From: a bacterium
Lineage (GTDB): Bacteria; Desulfobacterota; Desulfocorpusculales; Desulfocorpusculum
Length of the DNA: 64,000 nucleotides
NCBI GenBank assembly: GCA_037481695.1
Contig: JBBFLE010000006.1
Location: forward strand, 1-64,000
Reading direction: 5' to 3'
Position numbers and translations under genes: made by a program. The notes below the pieces were generated by a model, which did no database searches, was not told the DNA's origin, and saw only the letters and a list, made by a program, of their open reading frames with translations. Each line of letters opens with the position of its first letter. Within the stretch, counting starts at the first letter, position 1. Below are positions 24,358 through 50,648 of the stretch, one piece after another.

Positions 24358-24577
24358 GGATCCACCCCAATGCACACCTGGCCCGAAGCGTGAACCGGGC
24401 CTTGAGCTAAGCCCTATGGCCTGCCCCATCCATATAAGAGGAGCCCCATCGGGCTTCTGAGCATTTACCCCAACAAAGAGTTCCTCTTGTCTTTCCCCTG
24501 CCCGGAGACTTGGAACATCACAACTACGTTCATGATGACCGAGCCCTCAAGAACCGGCTCATTGAGCACTACTGGGG

Positions 24578-26686: not shown

Positions 26687-29195
26687 GAGAATCTCCAATG
26701 GGTAAAGCAGCCTCGGCCTCCAGCAGTGGGAGGGCTATGGTAAAAACCGCACCTCCACCAGGGCGGTTTTCGGCGTTTATGGAGCCTTTATGCTCCCGTA
26801 CGATGCCGTGTGCTATGGAAAGCCCGAGTCCATGGCCCGTGTCCTTGGTGGTGAAAAAAGGATCGAAGATATGTTTTATGTGGCTTTCGCGAATTCCTGG
26901 ACCATTGTCGGCTATGCGCACATATGCCTCCCGGTCTCCCTGTGTGTATCCCTGGGGAAGCTTAGCAAAAGGAGCGGCTGGTGGCCAGCCCCATCTTTTT
27001 CTGGTTCCAGTGGAGATCTCCAAGGAGGGTTCTTCTTGGGATGATGTGGCCTCCAAGGCATTAAGTAGCACGTTCATAAAGACCTGCTTCAGTTGCTCTG
27101 CATCCGCGAAAACCCAAAGAGGGGTCTCGTAATACTTGGTGGTGATCTTTATTCCTTTCTTGGCCATTTCGCTAGACAGTAGTGCCAGGGTCTGTTCTAT
27201 GGGGTCATGGAGGTCTATGGGCATGGGAATAGGCTTGGGGGGCCTGGCAAAACGAAGGAGCTGCTCCACCAGGGAGTTTATCCTCTCTATCTCCCCTGCA
27301 GCTATGTGAGAAAAGGACTCACGGAACTCCGGATCATCATACTTGATGGGAAGAAGTTGGGCGAAGGTCTTCAAGGAAACCAGAGGATTCTTGATCTCGT
27401 GGGCCATGCCAGCAGCCAAAGTGCCCACAGTGGCAAGGCGCTCTGCCCTTCTAACCTCAGCCTCCAAGAGCTTTATCTCCGTTAGATCTGTGAGAACAGC
27501 TAGGGCACCGATTACCTGGCCCTGGGCATTACGTAATGGAGCTGTGGAGACGCTTAAGACGTTGGCATTGCGGTCCTTTGCCTCAACCTGAAATTCTTGA
27601 TTGCTAACGGGCAGACTCATCTTGACAGTTGAGATGAGCGCGTTCCAAATCGTAAAGGGGAGAACATCAGCTGGTTTGCCAAGAAGGTTCCTACACGGCA
27701 ATGACAGCAGCTGTTCAGTTTTTTTGTTAAACCTTGTCACCACCATATTAGTATCAACTGTCAAAATGCCACAAGTCATCTGCTCAAGTACAATCTCCAT
27801 ATATTCTTTCATCGATAGGATTTCTTCATAGAGAATGGCATTATGTATTGCAACTGCTGCCTGATTACCAAGAGTGGTCAGAAAACTAACGTCATCGCCG
27901 CTAAAAATCTCTCCACTTGTTTTCTCTCCAAGAGCGAGTAAGCCTATCACAGCTCCTTTTGTTACCAGTGGAACTACTACCGATGCGTTGAGGACATCGA
28001 AGTGTTTCTTATAATCGTAATACTCTTTCTGACCGAGTTTAGAGCGAAGTTCGTATTCTATCAAAATGACACTATCTTCATTGAATGCCTCAAAAAAGAA
28101 ATTACAACTCCGTTTTACCCCTTCGTCCGGGGCAAAAATTACCTCGCCGTTTCGCCATAGAAACAACTGACAAGTCCTCGTACGCAGCAACCTCTCCAAC
28201 CCTTTGACAAGGAATTCTCTCAACCCTTCCAGTTCATAGTGAACAGCCATACTCTTACTGAATTCTCTGAGATCCCGCTTATAATTGTAATGTCCAGAAA
28301 AAATATAACTGTCTATTATCCTTTCAGATGCAGAGTTAACCAACGGCAGGAGGAAAGCTCCTATCAAAGCTATAAGGAAGGATCCCATTACTTTTTCAAG
28401 TGGCTCTTGGGTTGCAAGTCTTGGAGATAGTAGAAAGATAGCTGGATAGAAAAACAGAGTTAACAGTAAGACCTCGCAGCCGAAAATGGTAAGCCGTCTT
28501 AGAACAACTTTAACATCTAAGAATCGATATCTAATTATTGAGTATGCAATAAAAAGAGCCAATATTGCTGTCAACGAAGGGGCGACCCCTGGAAGTGGTC
28601 TGGTTCCTAAAATAAAAGGAAGGATTAGTTGAAGTGTAGCTGCACCAATTCCTACCGAAGAAAACCCTATAAGGATCATTTTGAGTTGGGCTCGCTCTAG
28701 CGGATCGTTTACGTGACGAAGGCTTGATAAAGGCGTAAGCAAGCAAAAGACTGTATATGCCGTAAGAACTGCCGCATACACTGGGTGAAGAGGGCCGTAA
28801 ATCGGAGCGGGTCCTCGCTGGGTAAGAATAACGCTCTTTTGCACTAATTCTGTGAGCGCTAAAGGGAATATCACGCCAGCAGGAATTATAATGAGTGGCA
28901 GAGAATACCTTTTCTTGAGGAATGGATGGAGTACGGGGAAATTCATAAAAAAAATGAAAACGAGAACAAATGGTGGTATTCCGAAAGCAAAGGCGAGTCG
29001 CCCAATTTTTTCGACAAGTAAGGGGTTTTGAACCGTGTTGACCAAAATATTCATAAGGATCCATATAGATAATGATAGGCATACAAAGAAAAAAAGAAGG
29101 TTGGTCTTTTTTCGGGGATTTGTGAAGAGTACAACTATTCCCAAAAATAATATCGTTAAGAAAGATATGACTAAAAGACTAATGGGGGCAACCAC
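26658..29195 (-). CDS. Membrane histidine kinase (7TM-type N-terminus, GAF, PAS, HisKA, HATPase)
   Basis: 845 residues from a GTG with AGGAG about 9 nt upstream. About seven to eight membrane helices fill residues 1-290, GAF lies at 315-455, PAS at 465-575 and the kinase core after 585 with phosphoacceptor H599 in GMAHEIKNPL, then LLNALEATS, IADNGPGIRE and GHGLGLSIAHG. It resembles kinases with the 7TM N-terminal region. The 5' two-thirds is AT-rich (28501-28560 has 17 G/C in 60) while the 3' third is native (26701-26760 has 36 of 60), with the step near 27600, inside PAS. It is the likely catalytically active partner of the dead kinase that follows. Confidence 0.87.
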   Translation of the reverse strand: MVAPISLLVISFLTILFLGIVVLFTNPRKKTNLLFFFVCLSLSIWILMNILVNTVQNPLLVEKIGRLAFAFGIPPFVLVFIFFMNFPVLHPFLKKRYSLPLIIIPAGVIFPLALTELVQKSVILTQRGPAPIYGPLHPVYAAVLTAYTVFCLLTPLSSLRHVNDPLERAQLKMILIGFSSVGIGAATLQLILPFILGTRPLPGVAPSLTAILALFIAYSIIRYRFLDVKVVLRRLTIFGCEVLLLTLFFYPAIFLLSPRLATQEPLEKVMGSFLIALIGAFLLPLVNSASERIIDSYIFSGHYNYKRDLREFSKSMAVHYELEGLREFLVKGLERLLRTRTCQLFLWRNGEVIFAPDEGVKRSCNFFFEAFNEDSVILIEYELRSKLGQKEYYDYKKHFDVLNASVVVPLVTKGAVIGLLALGEKTSGEIFSGDDVSFLTTLGNQAAVAIHNAILYEEILSMKEYMEIVLEQMTCGILTVDTNMVVTRFNKKTEQLLSLPCRNLLGKPADVLPFTIWNALISTVKMSLPVSNQEFQVEAKDRNANVLSVSTAPLRNAQGQVIGALAVLTDLTEIKLLEAEVRRAERLATVGTLAAGMAHEIKNPLVSLKTFAQLLPIKYDDPEFRESFSHIAAGEIERINSLVEQLLRFARPPKPIPMPIDLHDPIEQTLALLSSEMAKKGIKITTKYYETPLWVFADAEQLKQVFMNVLLNALEATSSQEEPSLEISTGTRKRWGWPPAAPFAKLPQGYTQGDREAYVRIADNGPGIRESHIKHIFDPFFTTKDTGHGLGLSIAHGIVREHKGSINAENRPGGGAVFTIALPLLEAEAALPIGDSHELRADRLA

Positions 29196-33530: not shown

Positions 33531-35069
33531 TCAGTGCCCAGGTGCCATCCCCTGGACCTTCAGATTCCTCGCAAGCACCACCGCAGCAACAGCCAGGAGC
33601 ATCAGAAGAGCCAGATGTTTGTAAGTGGCCATGAAGGCCTCTGCTCCCGCCACTGCCTGTATGAGCCTTCTTGCCATCTCCAGTGCCACCTGAGTGGCAT
33701 TGGGGTCAAAATAGGCTCCAGGATCCGGGCTCGCCAACCAGGATCCCAAGTATCCCAGAAGCTCTTTACCTGCGTAAGATCCCCACTCTATTCTACTGGA
33801 GATGGCATCGTAGAAGGCATTTTGCCTGGAAGTCAGTATATTCGTGGATACGGCCGTGCCTATGGAGCCAGCCACCAGCCTTGTCACGTTAATGATCATG
33901 GAGCCGTGGGCAAAATCCTCTTCCTTGAGGGAGGCAAAGACGAGGTAGCTCAAGGGGGCGAACGCCCCGGAGATGGCGAATCCCCAAAGCAGGTTATCCC
34001 ATATGATGGCCGAGCGGGGATCCAAGTAGCCTGTTCGAAAGACCCAGGTGGCCCAGGCTCCTGCCAAGAGAAAGGCAATGGCCACGGTTTTAGGCCTGAG
34101 GCGATCCGCCAGGGCCCCGCCCAGAAGGGTGGCCAGTGCCGAGGCCATGGAGCCGGGCAGCATGATCAATCCCGAATCCAAGGTGGTAAATCCCTTTAAC
34201 CTCTGGAGAAACACCGGGAGAAGAAGATATACACCGTAGGCCACCATGGAGTTGAGGCCCAGTGCCAGTAGGGCCAGGGAAACCTCTTTTTGGATGAAGA
34301 CGCTCCTGGGTATGAGGGGCCTTGGAGCCAAAAGCTCCCAGAAGATGAAACCAGCGAAACAGAGGCAAAAGACCACCACCATCTGAAGGATGAAGTCTGA
34401 TTGAAGCCACTCCTTTTCCTGTCCCTTGGACACAAATACCACAAGGGAACTGAGAGCTACGGACAGGAGGATGACTCCAACCAGATCCAAGGGGGCTTGT
34501 GGAGATGATTTCCTGTTCTGGATCAACCATATCACCAACATGGCATCCAGAAGGCCAATGGGCACGTTCACGTAGAAAATCCACCTCCATGTGAGGTGTT
34601 CCGTGATAAGACCTCCCAAAGAAGGACCTATGGCTGGAGCAAAGGCTGCCCCAAGTCCGTATATCCCCATGGCCAGACCCCTCTCCTGTGGAGGAAAGGC
34701 ATCGCTGAGCAAGAGCCAGCCAACAGGGATAAGCATTCCCTCTCCCACCCCCTGAAGGAATCTGGAGGCCAGCATTGCCTCCAAGGAGGAAGCTGCTCCG
34801 CAAAGAGCGCTCATGGCAACAAACAGCATAAGACCCCACAGATAGGTGTCTCTGTGGCCAAGCAGACCTGCTATCCAGCCCACGAAGGTCATGGCCACAG
34901 CAGCTCCCATGAGATAGGCGATTATTATCCACTGGGCGTCGTACATGTCCGCTTCCAGGGTGGACATCATCTTGGGGAGGGTTATGTCCACTATGGTTGT
35001 ATCCAGGAAGGCTATGAACATGCCCATGGTGACAAGGAATGCCACGCACCACTTGTTGGGCCCCTGCAT
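33531..35069 (-). CDS. emrB: DHA2-family multidrug efflux permease (EmrB/QacA type)
   Basis: 512 residues, about 14 membrane helices. The start carries FIAFLDTTIVDITLPKM (DHA2 motif D1), the loop 2-3 GLLGHRDTYLWG, SRFLQGVGEGMLIPVGW, and motif C-like AFAPAIGPSLGGLI. It is a proton-driven drug exporter of the inner membrane. Its start codon overlaps the emrA stop by one base (TGATG), so the pair is translationally coupled. Confidence 0.92.
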   Translation of the reverse strand: MQGPNKWCVAFLVTMGMFIAFLDTTIVDITLPKMMSTLEADMYDAQWIIIAYLMGAAVAMTFVGWIAGLLGHRDTYLWGLMLFVAMSALCGAASSLEAMLASRFLQGVGEGMLIPVGWLLLSDAFPPQERGLAMGIYGLGAAFAPAIGPSLGGLITEHLTWRWIFYVNVPIGLLDAMLVIWLIQNRKSSPQAPLDLVGVILLSVALSSLVVFVSKGQEKEWLQSDFILQMVVVFCLCFAGFIFWELLAPRPLIPRSVFIQKEVSLALLALGLNSMVAYGVYLLLPVFLQRLKGFTTLDSGLIMLPGSMASALATLLGGALADRLRPKTVAIAFLLAGAWATWVFRTGYLDPRSAIIWDNLLWGFAISGAFAPLSYLVFASLKEEDFAHGSMIINVTRLVAGSIGTAVSTNILTSRQNAFYDAISSRIEWGSYAGKELLGYLGSWLASPDPGAYFDPNATQVALEMARRLIQAVAGAEAFMATYKHLALLMLLAVAAVVLARNLKVQGMAPGH

Positions 35070-36190
35070 CAGGCCCCCTCCTTCTTTACCGCTACCTGGA
35101 CCGAAAGACCTGGCACGATCTCCGGGTGTCCATTCAGCTCCAGGATCTCCAGCTCCACCGGAACCCTCTGGGTCACCTTGGTGAACTCCCCGGCCGTGAC
35201 ATCCCTGGGAATGAGAGCAAACTCTTGAGCTGCAGCAGGGGCTATGCGCCTAATCCTTCCCCTTAGGACAACCCCGGGAATGGCATCCACCCTGAGTTCC
35301 GCCTCCTGGTGGAGCTTTAGATCAGATAGCTTGTTTTCCTCGAATCGCGCCTCCACGTACCTGGTCAGAGGGTCATAGAGAGCCAACAGAGGCCTTCCCG
35401 GGACTGCAAAGTCCCCTTCTCTTATGAAGACCCTGGCCACCACACCGGTGATCGGGGCCTTAACCTCTGTGCGACCCCTGGTCCAGCGGATTTGTGCCAG
35501 TGCTGCTTTTGCCTGGTCCAGGCCCGCTTGTGTCTCCTGCAGAGCCGCCTCGGCCTCATGTACGCTTAGCCTGGCAGCCCTGGCTTCCAGCAGCCTCGCC
35601 TCTGCCAGGGCCACTTGATCTCTGGCCGCCGCCATCTCTGCCCTAGCCGCCTCTGCCCCAGAATGGACTTGGTCCCACTGGGAACGGGAAACCACGTCTC
35701 TCTGGACCAGGACCTGTATCCTTCGTTCCTGGGCCTCCAGGTAATCCAGATTGGCTTGCGCTCTCACAAGCTGTTTTCTGGCAGCAGCCAAGGCTGCATC
35801 AGCAGCCTCCACCGTTGCCTTGACAGAAGCTCTTGTGCGATCCAAGACAGCCTGTCGCCTCAGAAGCTGCCTTTCCAGCTCTGCCACCTTGGCCTGGGCC
35901 TGCTCTTCTCTGTGGAGCCAGTCGTCGTCCTGAATCCTGAGGAGTAGTTCACCCGATGTTACCCTTTGGCCCTCTCTGACCAGCACCTCCATGATCCTTC
36001 CTCCAACCTCGGGTGCCACAGAGGCCATATCAGCCTTCACGTAGGCCGCATCCGTGGTGACATGGGTCAGCCTGTGCCAAAGCCATCTGCCTGATATGAC
36101 AGCCCCTACCACCAGTGCTGCTGCAAGACAGAGAATCACAAGATTTCTTTTTGTTTGCCTGGAAGTCATCCTCTGGACTTGTCCCTCCAT
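35069..36190 (-). CDS. emrA: EmrA-type membrane fusion protein (HlyD family)
   Basis: 373 residues. One membrane anchor lies at about residues 17-35, followed by a lipoyl half (ASVAPEVGGRIMEVLVREGQ), a long alpha-helical hairpin (about 85-230, rich in Ala, Glu and Arg) and the second lipoyl half (VKAPITGVVARVFIREGD). This is the periplasmic adaptor linking EmrB to an outer membrane channel; no TolC homologue is in the operon. GAGG lies 7 nt before the ATG and the tetR stop 27 bp upstream. Confidence 0.93.
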   Translation of the reverse strand: MEGQVQRMTSRQTKRNLVILCLAAALVVGAVISGRWLWHRLTHVTTDAAYVKADMASVAPEVGGRIMEVLVREGQRVTSGELLLRIQDDDWLHREEQAQAKVAELERQLLRRQAVLDRTRASVKATVEAADAALAAARKQLVRAQANLDYLEAQERRIQVLVQRDVVSRSQWDQVHSGAEAARAEMAAARDQVALAEARLLEARAARLSVHEAEAALQETQAGLDQAKAALAQIRWTRGRTEVKAPITGVVARVFIREGDFAVPGRPLLALYDPLTRYVEARFEENKLSDLKLHQEAELRVDAIPGVVLRGRIRRIAPAAAQEFALIPRDVTAGEFTKVTQRVPVELEILELNGHPEIVPGLSVQVAVKKEGA

Positions 36191-36217
36191 CTTGGCACCT
36201 CGAACTTCACCGGTTCC

Positions 36218-36784
36218 TCAGGCCTTTATGCCTTCAAGCAGACAATCTATGAGGCTTTCCACCTCCTCGGACTTCAGGGGTTGGCCCTCAACCGCGTAGG
36301 TGCGGCTCAGGTTTTGGAGAGCTCCTTGTAAAGCCACTGCCAGCAAATTCGCATTGACGGGCCTGAGTTGCTTTTTTTCGATTCCTTCTTGGATTACTGA
36401 GGCTATCAGATTCCTCTCTCGCCTCAGAAAGTCTATTCTTCGGCTCACCAAAAATCCCTCCAGCTCGTCTGCGATCTCTTCCCTGATCCTGTAAAGTCGA
36501 CCCAGCTCCCTCACCAGCACTATCTTGGCCAAGGCCAGGGCGCATAGCTTGTCCCGTGTGGTGGCTGCGGAATTCAAAGCCTCCTCCATGGCCTCCAGCA
36601 CACGGTTCTCTTCTCTGCCAAAGACCTCTTTTACTATCTCGGCCTTGCCTCCCGGGAAGTGGTGGTAAAGTGCGCTCTTTACTACTCCCAGCCGCAATCC
36701 CAGTTCGCTGACTGAAAAACGCCTCAATCCCTCCTTGGTTATAAGTTCCAGGGCTCTGTCCAGAACCTGATCCCTAGTAAGCAT
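36218..36784 (-). CDS. TetR-family transcriptional repressor of the emr operon
   Basis: 189 residues from ATG 36784 (AGGAG, spacing 9); an open extension to 36832 would run into the promoter. The N-terminal helix-turn-helix is typical: LDRALELITKEGLRRFS, VSELGLRLGVVKSALYHHFPGGKAEIV. The C-terminal ligand-binding domain is helical and divergent. First gene of tetR-emrA-emrB, so it very probably represses its own operon through the dyad over the promoter -10. Confidence 0.92.
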   Translation of the reverse strand: MLTRDQVLDRALELITKEGLRRFSVSELGLRLGVVKSALYHHFPGGKAEIVKEVFGREENRVLEAMEEALNSAATTRDKLCALALAKIVLVRELGRLYRIREEIADELEGFLVSRRIDFLRRERNLIASVIQEGIEKKQLRPVNANLLAVALQGALQNLSRTYAVEGQPLKSEEVESLIDCLLEGIKA

Positions 36785-36807
36785 CGAAGAAGCTCCTGAA
36801 CAAAAGA

Positions 36808-36851
36808 ACATTTTGGTCAAAAAGTAAGACAAGTTCTGTTCAGAGTCAAGT
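36808..36851 (-). promoter_or_regulatory. tetR-emrAB promoter with overlapping palindromic operator
   Basis: Minus-strand TTGACT (36849-36844) and TACTTT (36826-36821) are exactly 17 bp apart. An imperfect 18-bp palindrome at 36808-36825, core TTTTG-GT-CAAAA, overlaps the -10. Wider arms CTGAACA (36796-36802) and TGTTCAG (36837-36843) flank it symmetrically. A TetR dimer bound here would block RNA polymerase. Confidence 0.6.
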
Positions 36852-39752: not shown

Positions 39753-41780
39753 CTAGGGAGCTTTTCCTGAGATTTCCGTGGGGTCGAGGTTCTTTCCCTC
39801 CACCTTGAGGGTTATGTGGCGAAGCCCGCCCCATTTCGCCCCCAGAGAAGCAGATTCCGCAACCAGCAAGTAATGACCGGCTCTTGGAAATCTCACCTTG
39901 ACCTGGTAAAGGCCTGGCTCCACCTCAGATGCACCTGCCCGCCACTGCCAGTTGCCCTGAGTTGCAAAAATAATGACCCTGAGGTCTTTGAGATCACCTA
40001 TGGCCAGGCCCCGGGTCTCATCTCTTATTTCAAAGGCTACGGGCACCGGACCGGGGGAATCCAGAAAGAGTTTCTCCTGTCTTGCCACAAGAGCTATTCT
40101 TTGAGCCTGCGGCTTCTCCATGTCCCCGGTCCCCTCCACCACCAGATCGAAGCAGGCAGATGCCTTTGGGAATGGCAGGTGGAAAAGCACCTGATATGGA
40201 CCTCCCTGGCTCAGGCTGACCCGGGCTCTGTACTGCCCGGGCTCGGGGCCTTCCTGCATTCGACGGTGATAAATGAGAATACCAAGGGGTGGAGATGTCT
40301 GGAGCTTGAGTCCGCTCATGGGAGCCATCATGCCCTCCATATAATGGTAAATCATGCGGTCCCCCCCATGGGCGATCAGGGCCCCCCCGTGGCCGTGCAT
40401 GATGGCCATCTTGTTTAGATTGGAGGCTTTGGGGATCATCTCATCGGAGTTGCTCCCCACTGGGATCTCCAGGACAGGCAGTTCAGGGCCATTTCCCAGA
40501 TCAGCCTGCCTGAAAATGGTAATTTGGGCGCTTTTTGGATGGTGCACATATCCGTAATGCTGAGTGAATTCCAACTGCTCAGGGCCTTGCCCGATCCTTC
40601 CTCTTTGCACAACTGCCCCCCGCTCCAAGTCCACCACAGCCAGAGCCCTTTTTTCTGGAAAAAGGGCCAAAAGGAAACGACCATCGGGGCTTATCTTGAC
40701 AGAGGCTACCCCCGGGGCCAGGGCAATGGTGCCCAATACCATCAATGTGGAGGAATCTAGCACAAGAACCCCTCCCCCCTTGGAGTCCACTGCATAGGTC
40801 CTTCCGGTGTGAGCCGAGGAGGCCAGTTTAAGGCCTTCTCTTGGGACATCTATATTTCCAAGGAGCCCCCCTCTCCTGGCATCCATGACCTTCAGATGGG
40901 TCTCTGTGCTTGAGGCCAGAAATACTCTTGTACCGGATGGATCAAATTGCGCTTCCACAGGCCCCTGTCCCCATCTGAAGCTTCTTATGATTCTAAGCCC
41001 CTGGGACTCCACCAAAGTCACCTCGCCACTGCTAGATGTTATCCACAATAGCTCCAGCTCCTTGTCTGCAAAAAACTTATGGGGAAGGCCTTTTAACTCC
41101 AAGCGGCCTCTAATGCGATTGCCTTGGAGATCAAAGACAGCAAGCTCCCCCTTTTCCCCTCCTGCCCCCACCGCTGCAGGAATGGCCTCACTGGAGCCTG
41201 GGCCAAAGGGCGTCCTTGTTTTCTCCAGCAGCATAAATAGCAGCCCTCTTCTTTCATCCACCAAAGCTTCCACAGGCCTTCCACCCAGAGGAATTATGCT
41301 CTCTATGTTTGCTGTGGCCAGACTGACCCTGGGGTTAATCACCGAAAGGCTCTGGTCCTGATTGAGGGTCAAGATTTGCATCTTGTTGAGGGCAATGGCC
41401 TCTTCCGACTCCATGCCGCCCCTGGCCATGCGAGATACAGCCTCCTGGCAGCTCTGAGCATCCCAGGCTCCTGAAGAATCTGTTGCTCTGGCGATCCAGG
41501 CAAAGGGCTCCAGACCGATGGCTGGCCCCTTCCCATCCTCCCAGTCCAATCTAAAACCCAGTTCCAGCTCGCCGGGGGAGACTCCTTTAAGAAAGCGGGA
41601 ACCGGTTGCGGACATACGGAAATGCACCTGAAGACCTCCCGAGGACACAGGCTGCCCCAATTGTATCCAGTCCCCCAGAGAAGAGCTGCCGTAGCTGCCC
41701 GAGTGGGCGTGCTGAGCCGGGGCCGAAGTGGCATCACTGAAAAGAAGAAGCCCAATCAATGTGAGCAGCCGAAAGATCAT
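39753..41780 (-). CDS. Secreted YVTN-type beta-propeller protein
   Basis: 675 residues from ATG 41780 (GGGAGG, spacing 5). A signal peptide (MIFRLLTLIGLLLFSDATSA) is followed by an N-terminal beta domain, then propeller blades from about residue 150 to 450 with repeats such as VEAQFDPSGTRVFLA, TGRTYAVDS and VASVKISPDGRFLLALFP. A Met/His-rich stretch (MAIMHGHGG, MIYHYMEGMMAPM) could bind copper. The end (VPVAFEIRDETRG, then HYLLVAESASLGAKWG) looks like a YtkA-type domain. It is cotranscribed after the giant oxidase (65-bp gap), so it likely works with it at the cell surface or in the periplasm. No enzyme activity can be assigned. Confidence 0.78.
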   Translation of the reverse strand: MIFRLLTLIGLLLFSDATSAPAQHAHSGSYGSSSLGDWIQLGQPVSSGGLQVHFRMSATGSRFLKGVSPGELELGFRLDWEDGKGPAIGLEPFAWIARATDSSGAWDAQSCQEAVSRMARGGMESEEAIALNKMQILTLNQDQSLSVINPRVSLATANIESIIPLGGRPVEALVDERRGLLFMLLEKTRTPFGPGSSEAIPAAVGAGGEKGELAVFDLQGNRIRGRLELKGLPHKFFADKELELLWITSSSGEVTLVESQGLRIIRSFRWGQGPVEAQFDPSGTRVFLASSTETHLKVMDARRGGLLGNIDVPREGLKLASSAHTGRTYAVDSKGGGVLVLDSSTLMVLGTIALAPGVASVKISPDGRFLLALFPEKRALAVVDLERGAVVQRGRIGQGPEQLEFTQHYGYVHHPKSAQITIFRQADLGNGPELPVLEIPVGSNSDEMIPKASNLNKMAIMHGHGGALIAHGGDRMIYHYMEGMMAPMSGLKLQTSPPLGILIYHRRMQEGPEPGQYRARVSLSQGGPYQVLFHLPFPKASACFDLVVEGTGDMEKPQAQRIALVARQEKLFLDSPGPVPVAFEIRDETRGLAIGDLKDLRVIIFATQGNWQWRAGASEVEPGLYQVKVRFPRAGHYLLVAESASLGAKWGGLRHITLKVEGKNLDPTEISGKAP

Positions 41781-41803
41781 GTCTGCCTCCCTTTTTGTTT
41801 GCA

Positions 41804-41830
41804 GGTCCGGGTCTTTGATTGACCCGGACC
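41804..41830 (-). other. Intercistronic hairpin between oxidase and beta-propeller genes
   Basis: GGTCCGGGTC (41804-41813) and GACCCGGACC (41821-41830) form a perfect 10-bp stem with a 7-nt loop. On the minus-strand transcript no T-tract follows (A-rich sequence does), so it is better read as an mRNA stability or processing element than as a terminator. Confidence 0.6.
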
Positions 41831-41845
41831 ATGCTGAGGCCATCT

Positions 41846-44800
41846 CTATCTCACCTCAAAGCGGCCCCACATTCCCCTGGAGAAATGGAAGTTGGGCCCA
41901 GCTCTAAATATCCAGGTTCCTGCCTTGGCACCCCCAAAGGGTTCTGCTGTCACTGCCTTGCCCGGGGCCAGCAGGCTGGAGCCGCTGGAGAGAAAACCAG
42001 GCCTTCCGGCGTCAGGATAGTCGTGCCCGTAGAGAAAGAAGCTTGTTTGACGGGCCGGTCCCGCAGGGAAAAGAACCCTGAAACGCACCCTTTCCCCTGG
42101 CTTGGCAGTAAGCACCGGGGTGGATATGGGCCCCAGGAAGAAATCCTGGGGGTAGACCGTGTCGTTGGTATCCTGATCTGCCTCCAGCCCCAGCCTTAGG
42201 GTGAAGGGTTCAGTCTTGTAATTGATACCCATTTCTCCTGAATCCTCGGCATCGTCGGCCATGAAATGCTCGGGCATGGCCAAACCTTCCTTCAGGAGAT
42301 TCAGACCCGCCTGGTAAACCAGAACATGCTCCAGGAAATTTCCCCCGAAGCGCACTGGGGCCTGTATCCTGGCGCTCAGGTAGTTGCGGTTTCTGGACAG
42401 GGCAGCCCCTGTAACCGGATCCCTGTACCTGGAGTTTCTAGGCTCTATGATGAGAGCGCCCACAAGACCTTGACCGGGATGCTTGATCACGTCAGCTCCC
42501 GAGATCAAAGGAATTGGCCCATACTCACGCGGCCTGGCTCTTTTTCGGTCCTGACCGCCGGCTCTTTTTCCCAGCTCCATCACTCCTGCATACCACCGGT
42601 AGGTGATGCTCTGGCCCGGTCCCACAGTCTGATCCGCCGGGAATCCAGGCTGGGATGTGTTCCAACCCACGTTCACGCCGTCTCCCCTCCTGGGATCATA
42701 GTCCACCAGCTGGGGATGCAGGGAAACCCTGTTGGAAGGCCTGAACATGTCCGCTTCCATGGCTGTAATGGGCACCAACCTGGCATCTCCCTCATGATCA
42801 GGTATTTCCCCGGGGAGTCTGTTGGTCAGAGTCACCTCAATGCACTCTCCCGCATTGGCCCTTATGACCAAGGGCTCGGGCTCTTTCAGTCCCAGCATGT
42901 AGGCCTCTCTGTCTGCCGCGTGGATGAAGAGCATGCCGCTTGGGTCCTCCACAGAGTGCTCTGAGTTATATCTTATTGCCCCAGCAGGGAGCAGATCCCT
43001 GGCTGCCCATGCCTCCACCTGGTATCGTCTCACCCTGCTTGCCAAGGCCGGAGGACATCCCCTGAGAAACCGCCTCTCATCCCTTTTCAACACCGTGAGT
43101 CTCCCGTCAGGGTTTTCGGGAAGAGCTTGAAGGGTGTCGCCAATGCGCTGGCCCGTGGCAGGATCTCTGGCATCCGGACTGCTGAAGCTACGGATGAATC
43201 CCCAGGCCCCGTTCCAGAAATCATCTGTGGCATTGAAGTGATAAAGGTAATCCGCGGTCTCCGATGTGCGGGCGCTTTCGTCCATGAGCCCCATGGCCAG
43301 CTCAAAGTGCTCTGAGAGACCGAGCTCCTGGGCTCCCACCACAAGGGAGTTGGACTCATTTTGTTCCCTAGACCAGCGCATGGCGTTTATGCTGACCACA
43401 TGTTGCTCTTCCTGGGCTCCCTGGATCAGGCGCAAGACCACCCTGTCTCCTTCATAAGCCTTGAAGATCTCGGTGAAGGGATCCCCATGGACGGAGGAGT
43501 CGAAAACGTAAGCCATGTCGCCGGCTTTTCCGGGCTTGGTACCCAGGAAACTTCCGTCTTGCGGGTCAAAGAGCCCCACCCTGAGAGGTATGGGCTCATG
43601 GCGATAGTTCACCAGAAAGGTGCCTGGATCCTCTGCGGAGATGGCCTCAGGCAACAGGGGCGGATTAACGGGATTTCCAAACTCAGGCCTTATGGTGCCG
43701 GGCCTGGGTGTGGTGGTGGGATCGTAAACTATGGCGAAATCCGCCACAGCCAGTGCGAATTCCCTGTAATCAGGATGCGTATCCTTTTGCGAGGCATTGA
43801 CTATGCGCATCTGTGTGCCCACTCCCCTTGCTGGATCCATGGGCTGAGAGAGATCCTCCAGGCTGTTTGCGGCCAACCACTGGGAGCCCTCGGGCTCTAT
43901 CAAAAGAGCGCTGTAGAAGCCGTGTTGCTGAATTGAAGAGGGGGAAAAGTGATCATGGGTGAAGGCCGTTCTTATTGTGCGGTCTTTACCCAGCTGGTTC
44001 AAGAGCGGGTCTGCCCACCATCTCTGGACCGTTGTCTGGTATTGGCCTGTGGCGAAAAGTTGCACCGGGTTCCCTTGGGGATCCAAAGCCCAACCGCCTG
44101 GCTCCCTGGAGGCCCTGATGCGCTCCTCCACCTCCTGTCTGGCCAGGGTTCCGTCCTCGTAGTTCCAGCCGTTTGCCGAGCCGTCCGAGGAGGTCAGGTC
44201 GAACTTGACCAGATGGATGTGCTGGCCGATGGTATCAGTGGGGGACCTGACCTGGTAGTCGTCTCTTTCCAGCTCCCTGGGAGTGCGGTTTGTGTGGAAG
44301 AAGTTTATGCATTCTCCTGAGTTGGCCCTGAAGAAAAAGGGAGAGGCTGTGGTGCTTTTGCCCTCGAAAAGTTCCACATCCGAGTCCAGCACGTTTATCC
44401 TGGCCTGGGGATCGTGCCAACCATGGGAGTTGACCAGGAGATCCAGTTGTATGGCTGAGACATGGTAGTTTCGGGTACCAGTGGTCTTCCCAGGGGGGCA
44501 CGGATCAGCGAACGGGGCCCCAGGTACAGGGGGGAGCCCATTGACTGCCAATGTGGCAGGATTCCCCTCCGGGGTCATGCTGGGATGGCCCCCTGCGGCT
44601 GCATGGAAATCCATGGCTGCCCTCTCCAGGGTAGTGCCTTCCTTTTCCAGGAGTTGAATCTGCAGGGCCGTGTGAACCACAGAGAAATCAGCCTCCCTTC
44701 CCAAGAGCTCCTTGGTGATCCTGGCCCCGCCTGTCATGATGTGCCTGGGTAGACCTGCGTCCACTACAGGCTCCAAAGGGGGCTGTGGAGGCCTGTGCCC

Positions 44801-46384
44801 TGCCCTGCCTGCAATATAAAAGGGGTATCCTGGGAAAGCATTTGGGCCGTAAGTGGGCATGGGTACCATGGCTCTTTGAGGCATGGGGACAACGGCCGGA
44901 ATGGGCGTTCCGCCGGAGGTAAGCCCGCTTAGAGGGTCTGTGCCCGGGCCGTGCTCACCGTCCGGGAGCCTCCTAGAGCCGTCCTCGAAAGTGTCGTGGA
45001 TGCGCCAGAGGGCCCACATGCCCTGGGCAAAATGTGGGTAAAGGTGGCAGTGAAAGATGGCATCGCCAGGGGTCTTGTTCCTGTTCCCAGAGCCACCGTA
45101 GAGTATCTCTGTGGTATAGTTCTGCATGGGTCCCAAGGTCTGGGAGTCCAGGTAAGTGGAGTTTTCCCGGTTTTCAGTGGCCCCAAGCCATTGGTGGCCG
45201 TGGAGATGGTGGACATGGGTCTCTTTGACCCCACCGTGGAGCACCCTGAACTTCACGTTGTCGTTTAGGTAGCTGTGGTGAACATTGGCCGGGTCATGCT
45301 CGTATTCCACCCGAAGAGCCGGATCCCCATTGACCCATGAACTAAGGAAGAACTCCTCATAAGAACAACCCACGCAATCTTTGGCAGGCCCCAAGCTCTG
45401 CCTGTTGGCCAGCAGGATGGGTCCCATGCCGCTGGAGCCATAGTTTATGGCAAAGCCGTCCCTGACGCCTTTTAGCTGCTCCTGCTCCAAAAGGGCAAAT
45501 GCCTGCACGGCCTTTATTTCATCGTGATATATGGCCGTGAATTCCCTGAAGCTTCCCTCCGCAGTGGCCTCAATGCCGTCGTCATTTTGTTGGAATCCCA
45601 CGATAAGTGCATTCAAGTCCGAATGCACTATCTCGGTTCCCTTCAGCATGTTGAGAATGGGAGTGCCCGAGGGGTCAATTGCCTCATAGTCCAGGCGAGG
45701 ATGGCCGGTGGGCAAATACCCTACGGTGGCCTGGGCCATCTCCGAAGCTTGCACCTGGCTCCTGTACCATTTGCTGCCCCGGGGCTCGCAATGAAGGGCT
45801 CCGAAAAGCCCTTGCACTGCGCTTCCACCGTCGCCTTCACCGCCTGCGGGTGCGGCGTTGCTGAAAATGAGGTGAGTTCCCTCTCTTTCGCAGCTCCAGG
45901 TGTAAGTAGTGCTGTCACCAGGACCCACTCCAGAGATGCCCGTGTCTCCTGAAGTTGTAACACCCACCGCAACCATGGAGGCAAAACGTGTGGCCGGAGA
46001 GTCCTCGCTGGGACGCACCGGATCCAGGAGATTGGTGAACCTTACCACCAAGGTGTCCCCAACATTGGCCCGAAGCACCAAAGGACGAGGCCTTCTGTCG
46101 GGCCTGAGCATGACCTGCCCCGGTGTTCCGGCCTGACCTATGGGTTCGCCACTTAGGGAGTCCACCACATCCCGCCTGAGGGCATAGATCATTCCCGCGG
46201 GGTTGTAAGATCCAAATCTGTTGTAGAAGTAGACCTGATCCAGGGCCACAACATCCGCAGTAAGGGTCCTGGCTTGGGCACTTGCAGCTCCCCAGCAGCC
46301 GAGCACCAAAAGCCCCAAGATGAAAACGCCTCTCCCAAAAAGAAGTTTCTGACTCCTCCTGAATGGCTTAAGAGATTTCCTCAT
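41846..46384 (-). CDS. Giant secreted multicopper oxidase-like protein (OmpB/MnxG-like)
   Basis: 1512 residues. An N-terminal export signal (GVFILGLLVLGCWGAASAQA) includes VLGC, a possible lipobox. Several cupredoxin domains follow. Copper motifs in order: THVHHLHGH (390-397), FHCHLYPHFAQGM (445-456, with the type 1 Cys446), QHIHLVKFD (722-729) and FTHDHFSPSSIQQHG (H810, H812, H821). Classical oxidases have the HxH pairs first and HCH last, so the order here is permuted. The last domain repeats the layout but with FFLYGHDY and FRAGPNFHFSRGM, lacking HCH. Likely functions are metal oxidation or extracellular electron transfer, as proposed for OmpB of Geobacter. RBS AAGGAGG. Confidence 0.87.
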   Translation of the reverse strand: MRKSLKPFRRSQKLLFGRGVFILGLLVLGCWGAASAQARTLTADVVALDQVYFYNRFGSYNPAGMIYALRRDVVDSLSGEPIGQAGTPGQVMLRPDRRPRPLVLRANVGDTLVVRFTNLLDPVRPSEDSPATRFASMVAVGVTTSGDTGISGVGPGDSTTYTWSCEREGTHLIFSNAAPAGGEGDGGSAVQGLFGALHCEPRGSKWYRSQVQASEMAQATVGYLPTGHPRLDYEAIDPSGTPILNMLKGTEIVHSDLNALIVGFQQNDDGIEATAEGSFREFTAIYHDEIKAVQAFALLEQEQLKGVRDGFAINYGSSGMGPILLANRQSLGPAKDCVGCSYEEFFLSSWVNGDPALRVEYEHDPANVHHSYLNDNVKFRVLHGGVKETHVHHLHGHQWLGATENRENSTYLDSQTLGPMQNYTTEILYGGSGNRNKTPGDAIFHCHLYPHFAQGMWALWRIHDTFEDGSRRLPDGEHGPGTDPLSGLTSGGTPIPAVVPMPQRAMVPMPTYGPNAFPGYPFYIAGRAGHRPPQPPLEPVVDAGLPRHIMTGGARITKELLGREADFSVVHTALQIQLLEKEGTTLERAAMDFHAAAGGHPSMTPEGNPATLAVNGLPPVPGAPFADPCPPGKTTGTRNYHVSAIQLDLLVNSHGWHDPQARINVLDSDVELFEGKSTTASPFFFRANSGECINFFHTNRTPRELERDDYQVRSPTDTIGQHIHLVKFDLTSSDGSANGWNYEDGTLARQEVEERIRASREPGGWALDPQGNPVQLFATGQYQTTVQRWWADPLLNQLGKDRTIRTAFTHDHFSPSSIQQHGFYSALLIEPEGSQWLAANSLEDLSQPMDPARGVGTQMRIVNASQKDTHPDYREFALAVADFAIVYDPTTTPRPGTIRPEFGNPVNPPLLPEAISAEDPGTFLVNYRHEPIPLRVGLFDPQDGSFLGTKPGKAGDMAYVFDSSVHGDPFTEIFKAYEGDRVVLRLIQGAQEEQHVVSINAMRWSREQNESNSLVVGAQELGLSEHFELAMGLMDESARTSETADYLYHFNATDDFWNGAWGFIRSFSSPDARDPATGQRIGDTLQALPENPDGRLTVLKRDERRFLRGCPPALASRVRRYQVEAWAARDLLPAGAIRYNSEHSVEDPSGMLFIHAADREAYMLGLKEPEPLVIRANAGECIEVTLTNRLPGEIPDHEGDARLVPITAMEADMFRPSNRVSLHPQLVDYDPRRGDGVNVGWNTSQPGFPADQTVGPGQSITYRWYAGVMELGKRAGGQDRKRARPREYGPIPLISGADVIKHPGQGLVGALIIEPRNSRYRDPVTGAALSRNRNYLSARIQAPVRFGGNFLEHVLVYQAGLNLLKEGLAMPEHFMADDAEDSGEMGINYKTEPFTLRLGLEADQDTNDTVYPQDFFLGPISTPVLTAKPGERVRFRVLFPAGPARQTSFFLYGHDYPDAGRPGFLSSGSSLLAPGKAVTAEPFGGAKAGTWIFRAGPNFHFSRGMWGRFEVR

Positions 46385-46506
46385 TTTCTATTCCTCCTTG
46401 TCCAAGCCCATGTTCGCATCCACTGACTGCTTGGGTACATCCTTCATGCCTTCAACTTGGTTTTTCAGCAGCTCTTTTCAATGGGAAAAATCTTGTTTTC
46501 TGTAGT

Positions 46507-46520
46507 AGGTACTTGTACCC
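46507..46520. promoter_or_regulatory. Palindromic operator upstream of the multicopper oxidase gene
   Basis: GGTAC-TT-GTACC (46508-46519) is a perfect dyad about 125 bp upstream of the oxidase start; the core recurs at 48351-48376. A half site GGGTAC occurs at 46433-46438. The neighbouring NarL-type regulator is the obvious candidate binder. Confidence 0.6.
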
Positions 46521-46660
46521 CTTGGTCTTTTGGGAGTCCCTGGTGGTATTTTTGGAACTCCCCTCATGAGATGGGCAGAAGCAAGAAGAGGCTTGCCCCC
46601 AAGGCCAAAGTGCAGACAAGACACTGGCAAAGAAAAATTCCTACCATGAAAAGTTACAGC

Positions 46661-46702
46661 AAAAAAAGCCCGCATCGCGCACCCAGCCTGAACGATGCGG
46701 GC
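46661..46702 (-). terminator. Rho-independent terminator of the 502-aa secreted-protein gene
   Basis: On the minus strand GCCCGCATCG and CGATGCGGGC (46702-46693 and 46677-46668) form a perfect 10-bp stem with a 15-nt loop, followed by seven T residues (46667-46661). It lies 28 bp past the stop of the 502-aa gene, so the oxidase downstream needs its own promoter. Confidence 0.88.
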
Positions 46703-46729
46703 CTGTCTATAGCCCTGCCTTCCGATTTC

Positions 46730-48238
46730 TCACGGGAAAGGCAAGATCACTGAATTGCTCGTGCCAAAGCTGGAGACGGCCGTTATTTGCCCGCCTCTTG
46801 CTGCAGGCCTCAAGGACCTTGGAATTCCTCTTTGATCGAAACGGAAATTGCCAAGGGCATCCACTTGGGTGGTACCAATGACGGGTCCGCTTGCATCACC
46901 CAGATGAATGGTGATGGTGTTGCCTGGACCTGGGGAAGTGCTGGTTCCAGTTACGATCAGTCTACCACCTATTCTTCTTCTTGCTGTCAAGACAGTGAGG
47001 GTCTCCTCCACGATTTCCACTGCGGCAGTATCGGATCCTCCTGCAGAAGAGGTGACTGTTACAAAGGGCGGAGGAGCTGCAAGAGGCCCTGCAGTCAGTT
47101 TTCCTTCAACCAAGGTGCCCAAGGCTCCAGCCGAAAGAGTGGGCGGAGGTGTTGCCTTGTCGCTGGAGGATGCCTCCACCATCAAGGTGGAGCTGCTCAG
47201 GTTAAATACCGCCTTGCTGACCTTGACCAGGTCCACCAACTCCTTGAGGAGTGCAGAGGGATCGTTTACTCCGTCATTTGCCGATACGGTCACCACGCTA
47301 CCTGGGAGGCTGCTGGAGTCAGTCACCTGGATGTGGGCGAAGAACCGCCCTGTGCCGTCATCCACCATGGCTGTCTCGGGAATCAAGGGCAGCGAACTCA
47401 CCTTCACCGAAGCCCCGGGCACAGAGGTGGCGAACACATCCACGCTGCCCGGGTTTGTGCGGGAATAGTTGGCCCTTTGAATACTGAGGGGTGTGGCAAC
47501 GACTCCGTCGAAGAGTTGACCCTGAACCACAAACAGGTCTGTGGACTGGTCTATTCCCCCTGGTCCTCTTATGCGAAAAACAGAGCCATTGGGACCTGGC
47601 TCTATGGTGGAAGGAGTTGCTCCATCACCAAGGAAGCCTGCTGGCGGGGCAGGGTTCAGGGCTGCCAGAAGAGGCCCCACACTGCTTGTAAGGGCCAGAG
47701 AAAAGTCGCATGGAGCCGAGAAACAGCCTATGTCCTCTGTGAAATTGATGGCTCTAATCCCTGGAGAGACATCGTTGAAAATCAGTTGTCCAAAAGGATG
47801 GTCTATGGTCCAGGTGCCTACGGGTGTGCCTGCAGGCACATCCACCCTCACCCTCACCCTTCCGAATACTATTTGTTCACCGGCTGCGGGGTCCTCGTTC
47901 AAGAAGGCTGCTTCCAGCGCCAGTACAAGCAAGGCTGAGCTGGCAGCATCCCCTCCCACCCCGTCTATGGTGGCCTCAGCAGACCAGTAAAAGGCCTCCC
48001 CACCGAAGCCTATTTGCTGTGAAAAGAGGTTTCCCGGTACCACAGGGTCGAAGAGGCAGTTTGCCGGGTCCAAGCAAAGCTGCACGGCTCGCCCATTGGT
48101 GTCCTGGTACCAAACCGCATATCCGTTCACCGGGTCTACACCCGGTGATACGGCTGCCAGGGCACCATAAGCGCTTCGGCCAGCACCGAAAAGAAGTAAC
48201 GCGGTGAGGGTCAAAAGCTTAATAAGATTGGTTTTCAT
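46730..48238 (-). CDS. Secreted protein of unknown function, copper-cluster associated
   Basis: 502 residues; AGGAGGT lies 7 nt before the ATG. A signal peptide (MKTNLIKLLTLTALLLFGAG, then RSAYGALA) is followed by a domain with NGYAVWYQDTNGRAVQLCLD, two Cys pairs (LCLDPANC and GCFSAPC), FYWSAEATID and INFTEDIG. The C-terminal half is Ser/Thr/Pro/Val-rich beta sequence, resembling tandem Ig-like modules. I do not recognise an enzymatic motif. It has its own operator-like dyad and terminator and sits between the two-component genes and the oxidase, so it is probably an extracellular partner or substrate-binding component of that system. Confidence 0.72.
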   Translation of the reverse strand: MKTNLIKLLTLTALLLFGAGRSAYGALAAVSPGVDPVNGYAVWYQDTNGRAVQLCLDPANCLFDPVVPGNLFSQQIGFGGEAFYWSAEATIDGVGGDAASSALLVLALEAAFLNEDPAAGEQIVFGRVRVRVDVPAGTPVGTWTIDHPFGQLIFNDVSPGIRAINFTEDIGCFSAPCDFSLALTSSVGPLLAALNPAPPAGFLGDGATPSTIEPGPNGSVFRIRGPGGIDQSTDLFVVQGQLFDGVVATPLSIQRANYSRTNPGSVDVFATSVPGASVKVSSLPLIPETAMVDDGTGRFFAHIQVTDSSSLPGSVVTVSANDGVNDPSALLKELVDLVKVSKAVFNLSSSTLMVEASSSDKATPPPTLSAGALGTLVEGKLTAGPLAAPPPFVTVTSSAGGSDTAAVEIVEETLTVLTARRRIGGRLIVTGTSTSPGPGNTITIHLGDASGPVIGTTQVDALGNFRFDQRGIPRSLRPAARGGQITAVSSFGTSNSVILPFP

Positions 48239-48350
48239 ATCACCTACCTCCTTTGCTGAATTGCAAAATCTTCCTTATCATTCGCAGGCTATCTTGCTTT
48301 AAGGATTGCAACCTACCCAAAAGCTCTGCAATGAGGGTTAATACTCTTTC

Positions 48351-48376
48351 TTGGCTGGGTACAAGTACCCAACCAA
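48351..48376. promoter_or_regulatory. 26-bp near-perfect palindromic operator
   Basis: Left arm TTGGCTGGGTAC and right arm GTACCCAACCAA are separated by AA, with a single mismatch between the arms. It lies about 113 bp upstream of the 502-aa secreted-protein gene, nearly the same distance as the related dyad before the oxidase gene. The spacing suits an activator of the NarL/LuxR class binding upstream of -35. Confidence 0.7.
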
Positions 48377-48519
48377 GCCCCACTCGTGGCAAAGGGAGGA
48401 GGTGAAACACCCAGGAGTATGGATCCAGGGCCTATGGGTGCGGGTCTCGAAGAATCTTCTCAGGGTCAGGGGAACTTGAAAACATCTTTATGGGAAAGCC
48501 CGGGGGCTTGGGACGTGAA

Positions 48520-49161
48520 TCAGTCCATTTCAAGGGCATACCTGACCAGCTCCGCAGTTGTCTTAATTCGGAGCTTTTTCATGATGCTGGAGCGATGGTG
48601 CTCCACCGTGCGGGTGCTTATGAAAAGAAGCTTACCTATCTCCCTGCTGGATTTGCCCTCTCCTATCAATCTGAGGACCTCCCTTTCTCTGTGGGAGAGG
48701 GGATCCACCGGGCTCTTGAGCTTGCCGCGGGCCATGAGCACGAAGTCCTCCATGAGATCCCTGCTGAGGGTGGGGGAGATGTAAGTGGCGCCCCGGATAA
48801 TGGCGTCTATGGCCACAAAGAGCTCCGAGGGAGTGTCTTCTTTTAAAAGATACCCGTCGGCTCCGGCCGATAAACACATGTGGCAGTATTCCTTCTTGTT
48901 GTGCATGGTAAGCACAAGTACCTTGACCTCGGGATGCAAGGACTTTATCTCCCTTGTGGCCTCTATACCCCTGAGGCGAGGCATGGAGATGTCAAGCACA
49001 ACCAGATCGGGCTTGGTATTTCTGAGGGCCTCCAGCAGTTCCAACCCATCCCCCACCTCTGCCACCACATCCAGGTCTGGCCTCTCCAGGATCATCTTGC
49101 GCACGCCAGCCCGGAACATGGCATGGTCATCGGCCAGAAGGATCCTGTACCGAGTGCTCAT
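48520..49161 (-). CDS. NarL/LuxR-type response regulator
   Basis: 213 residues. The receiver has LLADDHAMFRAG, phosphoacceptor D57 in LVVLDISMPR and a conserved Lys in GYLLKEDTP. The C-terminal LuxR helix-turn-helix reads LSHREREVLRLIGEGKSSREI then LFISTRTVEHHRSSIMKKL. Its ATG overlaps the kinase stop by 4 nt, so they form a couple. It likely binds the GGTAC dyads upstream of the 502-aa and oxidase genes. Confidence 0.94.
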   Translation of the reverse strand: MSTRYRILLADDHAMFRAGVRKMILERPDLDVVAEVGDGLELLEALRNTKPDLVVLDISMPRLRGIEATREIKSLHPEVKVLVLTMHNKKEYCHMCLSAGADGYLLKEDTPSELFVAIDAIIRGATYISPTLSRDLMEDFVLMARGKLKSPVDPLSHREREVLRLIGEGKSSREIGKLLFISTRTVEHHRSSIMKKLRIKTTAELVRYALEMD

Positions 49162-50648
49162 AGAGCTACCCCCCTCAAGACCGGAACAGCAAGAATCACC
49201 TGGGTGCCTTTTCCTGGCTCGCTTTTAATCGAAAGGGAGCCTCCCAACATCCAAGCCCTTTCGTCCATGAATAGCAGACCCATTCCCTCTCCCCGATGGG
49301 TCTTGCGGCTTGCCCCATCTGTCTTAAAGCCTCGGCCGTTGTCGGCTATGGTGACCAGGATCTCATCCCGAGCCTTGCTGAGGCTGACCAAGACGCGGCT
49401 TGCCTGGGCGTGCTTGCCTGTGTTATTTAGGGCCTCCTGCACCACCCTGTACACCATTAATTGGGCATCCTGGGAAAGAAGCTTATCCACTTCCTCAGCC
49501 TCCAGGCAGGCCTCTATGGAGTGATGTTTGGCAAAATCATCCACCAACCATCGCAAGGCCAGCGTGAGGCCCAGATCCTCCAAGGGAGTAGGACCCAGAT
49601 CTTGGTAGAGCCTACGCACATTCTCTATGACCTCGTCGATGTAATCCGAAAGCTCCTTGCACTGGGAAATTGCCTTGGGGTCCTTTCCTGTAACAGCATT
49701 CTGTAAAGACCTTACTTGAAGCTTTAGGGTTGCCAGATCTTGGCCCAGTTGGTCATGAATCTCTCTGGCAAGGCGTTTCCTCTCTTGCTCCTGGGCTGAG
49801 AGCATCTTTGAGGAGAGAACCCGGAGTTTGTTTTCCGACTCCCTCAGAGCCTCTTCCATGACCTTGCGATCCGTTATGTCTGTGACCACTGCAAAACAAC
49901 CCATGAGGCGGCTTTCCTGGTCGAAAAAGAGCCTGGGGGAGAAGATGGTGTGGATCTCTTTACCCTCCTTGGTAACCCAGCTCACCTCTTGGTGCCCCAA
50001 GGCACATTGCCTGAGATCTTTCAATCTGGTCTCAAAGAAATCCCCTTGCTGGGGCACAAAGAAATCATTCATTGAGCGGCCTATCATCTCATCAGCTGAA
50101 TAGCCTAACATTTCGCAAAGCCTTTGATTCACGTATGTTATGTGTCCCTGGGAATCCACCACTTCCAAGCCCTCACTCATGGTGTCTATGAGAAGACGAT
50201 AGCGCTCTTCGCTCTTGCGAAGCTCACTCTCTGTCCATTTCCTGGTCTCCACCTCTTGGACAAGCCTTTGGTTGGTCTCCTGAAGTTCCTTTGTCCTTTG
50301 CTGAATTTTGCTTTCAAGGGTCTTGTTGGCCTCCTCCAGAGCCTCCTCAGCCTGCCTTCGGCGGTGAATCTCCCGGACAAGGGGACGATACATGAAGTAG
50401 TGGATCATGACGAACAGGAACAGGGTCAAGGTGAAACTGTCAAGAAGGGCGTTTTCCAAAGCAGAGAAAGGGGACAGCTCATAGATGAACCCCATTATTG
50501 TAAGCTCCGCAAAGAAAACAGATGCTGTTAGCAGAATCAGGAGCTGCCATGGGCTAACTGGCACATCCAGCCCCTCGGCGGAGGCTCTGTTTTGCGGTTC
50601 TTCCTGAGCGGAAGAGCCTGAGGTTTGAGGTGCAACTTCATTTTGCAT
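49158..50648 (-). CDS. NarX/DegS-type membrane histidine kinase with PAS domain
   Basis: 496 residues, start supported by AAGGAG at 7 nt. Two membrane helices (about 33-55 and 69-88) enclose only a short loop, so sensing is probably intramembrane or through the cytoplasmic PAS domain (about 150-262). A coiled coil lies at 95-145. The HisKA_3 box is RLAREIHDQLGQDLATL with H298, and the ATPase domain ends DNGRGF and GMGLLFMDERA. It would phosphorylate the overlapping response regulator. The signal is unknown; copper or redox state would fit the target genes. Confidence 0.9.
   Translation of the reverse strand: MQNEVAPQTSGSSAQEEPQNRASAEGLDVPVSPWQLLILLTASVFFAELTIMGFIYELSPFSALENALLDSFTLTLFLFVMIHYFMYRPLVREIHRRRQAEEALEEANKTLESKIQQRTKELQETNQRLVQEVETRKWTESELRKSEERYRLLIDTMSEGLEVVDSQGHITYVNQRLCEMLGYSADEMIGRSMNDFFVPQQGDFFETRLKDLRQCALGHQEVSWVTKEGKEIHTIFSPRLFFDQESRLMGCFAVVTDITDRKVMEEALRESENKLRVLSSKMLSAQEQERKRLAREIHDQLGQDLATLKLQVRSLQNAVTGKDPKAISQCKELSDYIDEVIENVRRLYQDLGPTPLEDLGLTLALRWLVDDFAKHHSIEACLEAEEVDKLLSQDAQLMVYRVVQEALNNTGKHAQASRVLVSLSKARDEILVTIADNGRGFKTDGASRKTHRGEGMGLLFMDERAWMLGGSLSIKSEPGKGTQVILAVPVLRGVAL

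Follow-up and report, generated by a model that had tools for sequence, protein, structure and literature searches.

Layout and control of the locus

Five genes lie together on the minus strand between positions 39753 and 50648 of the window, the 64,000-nucleotide stretch of DNA analysed here. Their open reading frames of 496, 213, 502, 1512 and 696 aa agree with the sequence-only reading, which had placed five neighbouring genes on one strand. A sensor histidine kinase of 496 aa (49158–50648) and a NarL/LuxR-type response regulator of 213 aa (48520–49161), both identified from the list of open reading frames and domain matches, overlap by 4 nt at the end of the kinase gene and the start of the regulator. 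These are followed by the gene of a secreted 502-aa protein (46730–48238; list of reading frames and family searches), a secreted 1512-aa multicopper oxidase of the MnxG/MofA family (41846–46384; family, structure, alignment and tree), and a secreted YVTN-type beta-propeller with a C-terminal YtkA-like domain and an EGMxAPM motif (39753–41780). The propeller reading frame is annotated from 41843 (696 aa), which is probably too early, as the ATG at 41780 is preceded by GGGAGG and opens a signal peptide. The oxidase and propeller genes form a tight pair downstream of the 502-aa gene and of a terminator-like stem-loop, GCCCGCATCG..CGATGCGGGC followed by T7, on the minus strand at 46668–46702, 3′ of the 502-aa gene. 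Because this strong stem-loop with its T-run separates the 502-aa and oxidase genes, a division into two transcription units is reasonable.

The kinase contains PAS, HisKA_3 and HATPase domains, and the regulator a receiver and a GerE/LuxR domain, in keeping with the NarX/NarL-type pair recognised in the sequence-only reading. The sequence of the kinase further predicts two membrane segments with a short loop, and a coiled coil; no NarX nitrate-sensing periplasmic domain is seen in the window kinase.

The same reading had noted related palindromes upstream of both secreted-protein units, and this holds. The operator-like palindromes GGGTACTTGTACCC (48357–48370, minus strand, upstream of the 502-aa gene) and AGGTACTTGTACCC (46507–46520, plus strand, upstream of the oxidase gene) are near-perfect and have 13 identical bases in common, GGTACTTGTACCC. 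Their exact 12-mer core, GGTACTTGTACC, occurs twice in the whole 4,102,991-base genome, at 46508–46519 and 48358–48369, placed 123 nt from the start codon of the oxidase gene and 119 nt from that of the 502-aa gene. One-mismatch versions of the core occupy seven further genomic sites, and GGGTACTTGTACCC is embedded in a longer 13+2+13 inverted repeat (48350–48377). There is no copy upstream of the window kinase gene, and the relatives examined do not have the palindrome in their upstream regions. A sigma-70 scan gave no candidate near the 502-aa or oxidase starts, with total sites not above those in shuffles. As judged from sequence, this genome-unique pair is the strongest evidence that the 502-aa unit and the oxidase unit are co-regulated, and the neighbouring regulator would be the protein that binds it.

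The oxidase and its propeller neighbour

The 1512-aa protein, which the sequence-only reading had called multicopper oxidase-like, matches Cu-oxidase_2 in a domain search, the MnxG model NF041487 with 824 bits in 8 stretches, and the solved MnxG chain 9bxa in a sequence search (E 1e-133). The equivalog cutoff of NF041487 is 3100 bits, a score reached neither by the window oxidase nor in any of the 395 genomes of the phylum sample, and because 824 bits is far below it, MnxG function cannot be assumed. All four signatures that define a multicopper oxidase (HxH, HxH, HxxHxH and HCHxxxHxxxxM/L) are present, in the order HxxHxH, HCH..., HxH, HxH that is also found in aligned MnxG. The ligands H390, H393, H395, H445, C446, H447, H451, M456, H722, H724, H810 and H812 comprise the type 1 and trinuclear sites and the axial Met, and 12/12 of these positions are invariant across 77 aligned sequences. 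The Bacillus chain 9bxa places an Ala (HCHLYPAF) opposite the type 1 ligand H451 of the window oxidase (HCHLYPHF), one of the invariant positions.

In a quick tree, the oxidase falls within a clade containing the homologues of Leptothrix discophora, Sphaerotilus, Nitrosomonas, Nitrospira and methanotrophs (support 1.0). Its nearest relative is from a Desulfopila-labelled MAG, although that sister pairing has a support of only 0.23. On the strength of its full-length matches to the MnxG model and structure and of its place in the tree, we assign the 1512-aa protein to the MnxG/MofA family of manganese oxidases. Of five other MnxG proteins from the phylum sample that the tree included, four (G026, G046, G275 and G307) lie outside the clade and one (G242) lies inside it, which suggests a possible horizontal origin of the window oxidase gene. 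The gene is missing from two other sampled genomes of the same GTDB family.

The identity of the propeller was confirmed by family, sequence and fold searches, the model (pLDDT 82.5) matching YVTN and YncE propellers. The Met/His-rich patch that the sequence-only reading pointed out is present in the window protein, but only its E-G-M-x-A-P-M stretch is conserved among relatives (M505 in 89%, M509 in 65%), most of the other Met and His residues being variable; C132 and C564 are likewise conserved. The propeller is the usual neighbour of MnxG-family oxidases, lying near the oxidase gene in 54 of the 80 named loci, which span many phyla, and nearly always directly or closely downstream. Of the 26 loci lacking it, nine end within about 1.1 kb of the end of the oxidase gene.

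The window arrangement, with a YVTN propeller directly downstream of the oxidase gene, is that of the Pseudomonas-type mnxG operon. In P. putida GB-1 the propeller is the second gene, directly after mnxG (PMC11409713, Table 4; also PMC8218464), and the two-component proteins MnxS1/S2/R are needed for Mn oxidation (PMC11409713). That operon contains mnxG, the YVTN propeller, two SCO1/SenC genes, a cytochrome c/ABC-binding protein and SurA, plus mnxS1/S2 and mnxR. The window likewise has a giant MnxG-family oxidase followed by the propeller under dedicated two-component control; unlike P. putida, it is without SCO1, cytochrome/ABC and SurA genes, has an extra secreted 502-aa protein and comes from a different phylum. 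Neither SCO1/SenC nor cytochrome c/ABC-binding genes are matched in the window, and the complete window genome has no SCO1, whereas the seven other MnxG genomes of the phylum sample have two to six SCO1 matches each. Control also differs in type, with a NarX/NarL-type pair in place of a sigma54-dependent MnxR and two kinases. Pairs resembling that of the window adjoin MnxG in loci L077, L089, L094 and L103 (L112 is a weaker case), while another two-component cluster, taken to be NtrC-type, is commoner near MnxG (24/80 loci within the fetched flanks). As this other cluster is the commoner one and the P. putida regulator is sigma54-dependent, control in the window is of the same kind but from a different family.

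The window oxidase shares its strongly supported clade with homologues of L. discophora, the source of mofABC, and Sphaerotilus, but the mip-like MofB and the cytochrome c MofC are absent from the window, and the Leptothrix homologue has no propeller nearby in the available flank. Bacillus MnxEFG resembles the window system in the ligand motif order of its MnxG, and differs in that no MnxE/F is seen at the window locus. From these gene comparisons, the locus is best described as a new form of the Mnx/Mof manganese-oxidase operon that does not amount to a new type of system, and the term 'undescribed' in the sequence-only reading has to be given up for the combination of oxidase, propeller and two-component control, which is the known mnxG arrangement (PMC11409713, PMC8218464). 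Its originality lies above all in the 502-aa companions, a family linked to several multicopper oxidases, and next in the palindrome regulon with its two sites.

The 502-aa family

The 502-aa protein consists of a signal peptide, an N-terminal domain of ~210 residues (about 27–240) and Ig-like domains. It has no Pfam match above cutoff and none in NCBIfam, PHROGs or PDB by sequence search; sub-cutoff Pfam matches (CBM_6, SdrD_B, Big_6) indicate only an Ig-like C-terminus, and for the N-terminal domain no known relative was found in these four databases. A fold search with the model (pLDDT 71) returned only generic tandem Ig proteins at low TM scores and is uninformative for that domain.

Relatives of the 502-aa protein are found in 7 of the 80 named MnxG loci (8 genes). 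Across the phylum sample, 8/8 MnxG-bearing genomes have the N-terminal domain, as against 21/395 overall, for which the hypergeometric probability is about 1.5e-11 when relatedness among genomes is ignored. The gene adjoins MnxG in one genome (G307) and lies within about 10 kb of it in three (G026, G284, G046). A further 13 sampled genomes carry the family but no MnxG; in seven of these (G141, G335, G353, G324, G008, G243, G138) the gene is within about 8 kb of another multicopper oxidase, and in the first four of the seven a MauG-like di-haem peroxidase sits between or beside the two. In G191, G104 and G045 no multicopper oxidase neighbour of the 502-aa gene was identified. Because such neighbours occur in genomes with and without MnxG, the 502-aa family is associated with more than one kind of multicopper oxidase. 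Tentatively, it may constitute an undescribed family of secreted Ig-like companions of extracellular multicopper oxidases, serving MnxG/MofA enzymes and also a distinct cassette, apparently undescribed, in which a small multicopper oxidase is paired with a MauG-like di-haem peroxidase, and used at oxic-anoxic boundaries in a phylum with many sulfate reducers. As an uncharacterised protein family, it has neighbours that predict a role in extracellular metal oxidation.

The MnxG-free cassette combines a 502-aa-family protein, a large MauG-like di-haem protein and a 444–526-aa multicopper oxidase (L158 6923–13945, L166 7621–12547, L167 1071–6950, L171 7470–16772). A MauG domain protein is also encoded just upstream of MnxG in L177 (2150–7396). 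In L161 (576–6185), a 502-aa-family gene adjoins that of a 1869-aa protein with PAP2/vanadium-haloperoxidase-like, multicopper oxidase and Y_Y_Y matches. At the C-terminus of the 2636-aa MnxG-like oxidase of L112 (9755–17662) are Ig-like repeats and, last, a domain that matches the C-terminal end of the 502-aa protein, with 33% over about 110 aa; an anchoring or sorting domain at the C-terminus may be common to both proteins.

Proposed function and its alternatives

The window genome encodes dsrA, with a second, weaker match 3′ of it that is expected to be dsrB, and because the organism has dsrAB, life at least partly without O2 is probable. It also encodes a CcoN-type oxidase subunit with a CcoO-like cytochrome partner. 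The description 'apparent anaerobe' in the sequence-only reading is therefore too simple, as dsrAB coexists with a cbb3-type oxidase. Heme-copper oxidase homologues are present in 8/8 MnxG genomes compared with 139/395 overall (p 2e-4, relatedness among genomes ignored), and this, together with the CcoN/CcoO-like pair of the window genome, makes oxygen-dependent chemistry plausible.

We consider it probable that the locus is a compact Mnx/Mof-type operon, encoding an O2-dependent, switch-controlled, secreted oxidase module that most likely acts on Mn(II), with the propeller and the 502-aa protein as companions. For substrate, export route, physical partnership, palindrome binding by the regulator and the sensed signal, we infer the following scheme. 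The exported 1512-aa oxidase would oxidise a reduced metal, most likely Mn(II), outside the cytoplasm and deliver the electrons to O2 at the trinuclear copper site. The propeller, encoded on the same transcript, is probably a dedicated partner that would act in assembly, in copper loading through EGMxAPM, or in substrate docking. The Ig-like 502-aa protein would be a second secreted companion, which probably keeps the oxidase in place in the outer layer or serves as its scaffold there. Both units would be turned on together, through the palindrome core, by the membrane kinase and its NarL-type partner, in response to oxygen, redox state or metal.

Multicopper oxidases consume O2, and the enzyme could instead be mainly an oxidase of Fe(II) (or of another metal or organic substrate), or an O2 scavenger shielding a sulfate-reducer-type cell, with manganese incidental. 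The presence of dsrAB and a cbb3-type oxidase in one genome and of homologues in nitrifiers, methanotrophs and Leptothrix/Sphaerotilus fits such a role, which nonetheless appears unlikely, given that the nearest characterised relatives, MnxG and MofA, are tied to Mn and that mnxG of P. putida, which also has the propeller next to it, has been demonstrated to be an Mn oxidase gene (PMC11409713). The sequence-only reading had left metal oxidation, metal reduction and copper detoxification side by side; of the three, oxidation is likelier than the other two. Detoxification by a Cu(I) oxidase of CopA/PcoA/CueO type with a Cu-binding propeller would suit the generic multicopper oxidase fold and the Met/His-rich propeller segment. 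It is ranked low and is quite improbable, as the protein scores 19.3 bits against the CopA model TIGR01480 (cutoff 479), the module is without copper efflux, CopB/C/D or Cue/Cus genes, and most Met and His residues of the patch are not conserved.

An accessory role in metal reduction was prompted by Geobacter OmpB, a large secreted multicopper protein from a related lifestyle to which the window oxidase may be similar. The giant size and the sulfate-reducer-type genome accord with this idea, but the protein scores as MnxG and lies in the MnxG/MofA clade, the family matches of the module proteins include no haem-binding motif, and the complete type 1 and trinuclear ligand sets imply oxidase chemistry; an OmpB-like function is thus also ranked low and is highly improbable. 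It is improbable, too, that only the oxidase and propeller form a unit and that the 502-aa gene and two-component pair are chance neighbours. The sequence-only reading had joined three secreted proteins in one regulated module, and independent occurrence, which it had set against that grouping, applies in part: some genomes have the 502-aa family but no MnxG, and strong linkage of the NarL-type pair is limited to four other loci. Most of the data hold the module together, however, with the propeller beside the oxidase in most loci, the 502-aa family in every MnxG genome of the sample and near other multicopper oxidases in further genomes, and a common genome-unique palindrome at near-equal spacing.

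A published survey reported mnxG-like genes in a Desulfobacterota MAG and termed them enigmatic (PMC9224936). For such genes of sulfate-reducer lineages, the locus offers a testable case, since one genome combines an intact enzyme, a switch of its own with a regulon of two sites, and an oxygen oxidase of the high-affinity type, and it illustrates how small a working Mnx operon might be.

Elsewhere in the window, a run of TetR-type regulator, HlyD-type membrane fusion protein and MFS transporter (33531–36832) is an ordinary efflux cassette, and three large sensor/response hybrid kinases follow one another at 23116–29195. A 260-aa reading frame (62523–63305) fuses a 23S rRNA intervening-sequence-protein domain to a topoisomerase-type zinc ribbon.
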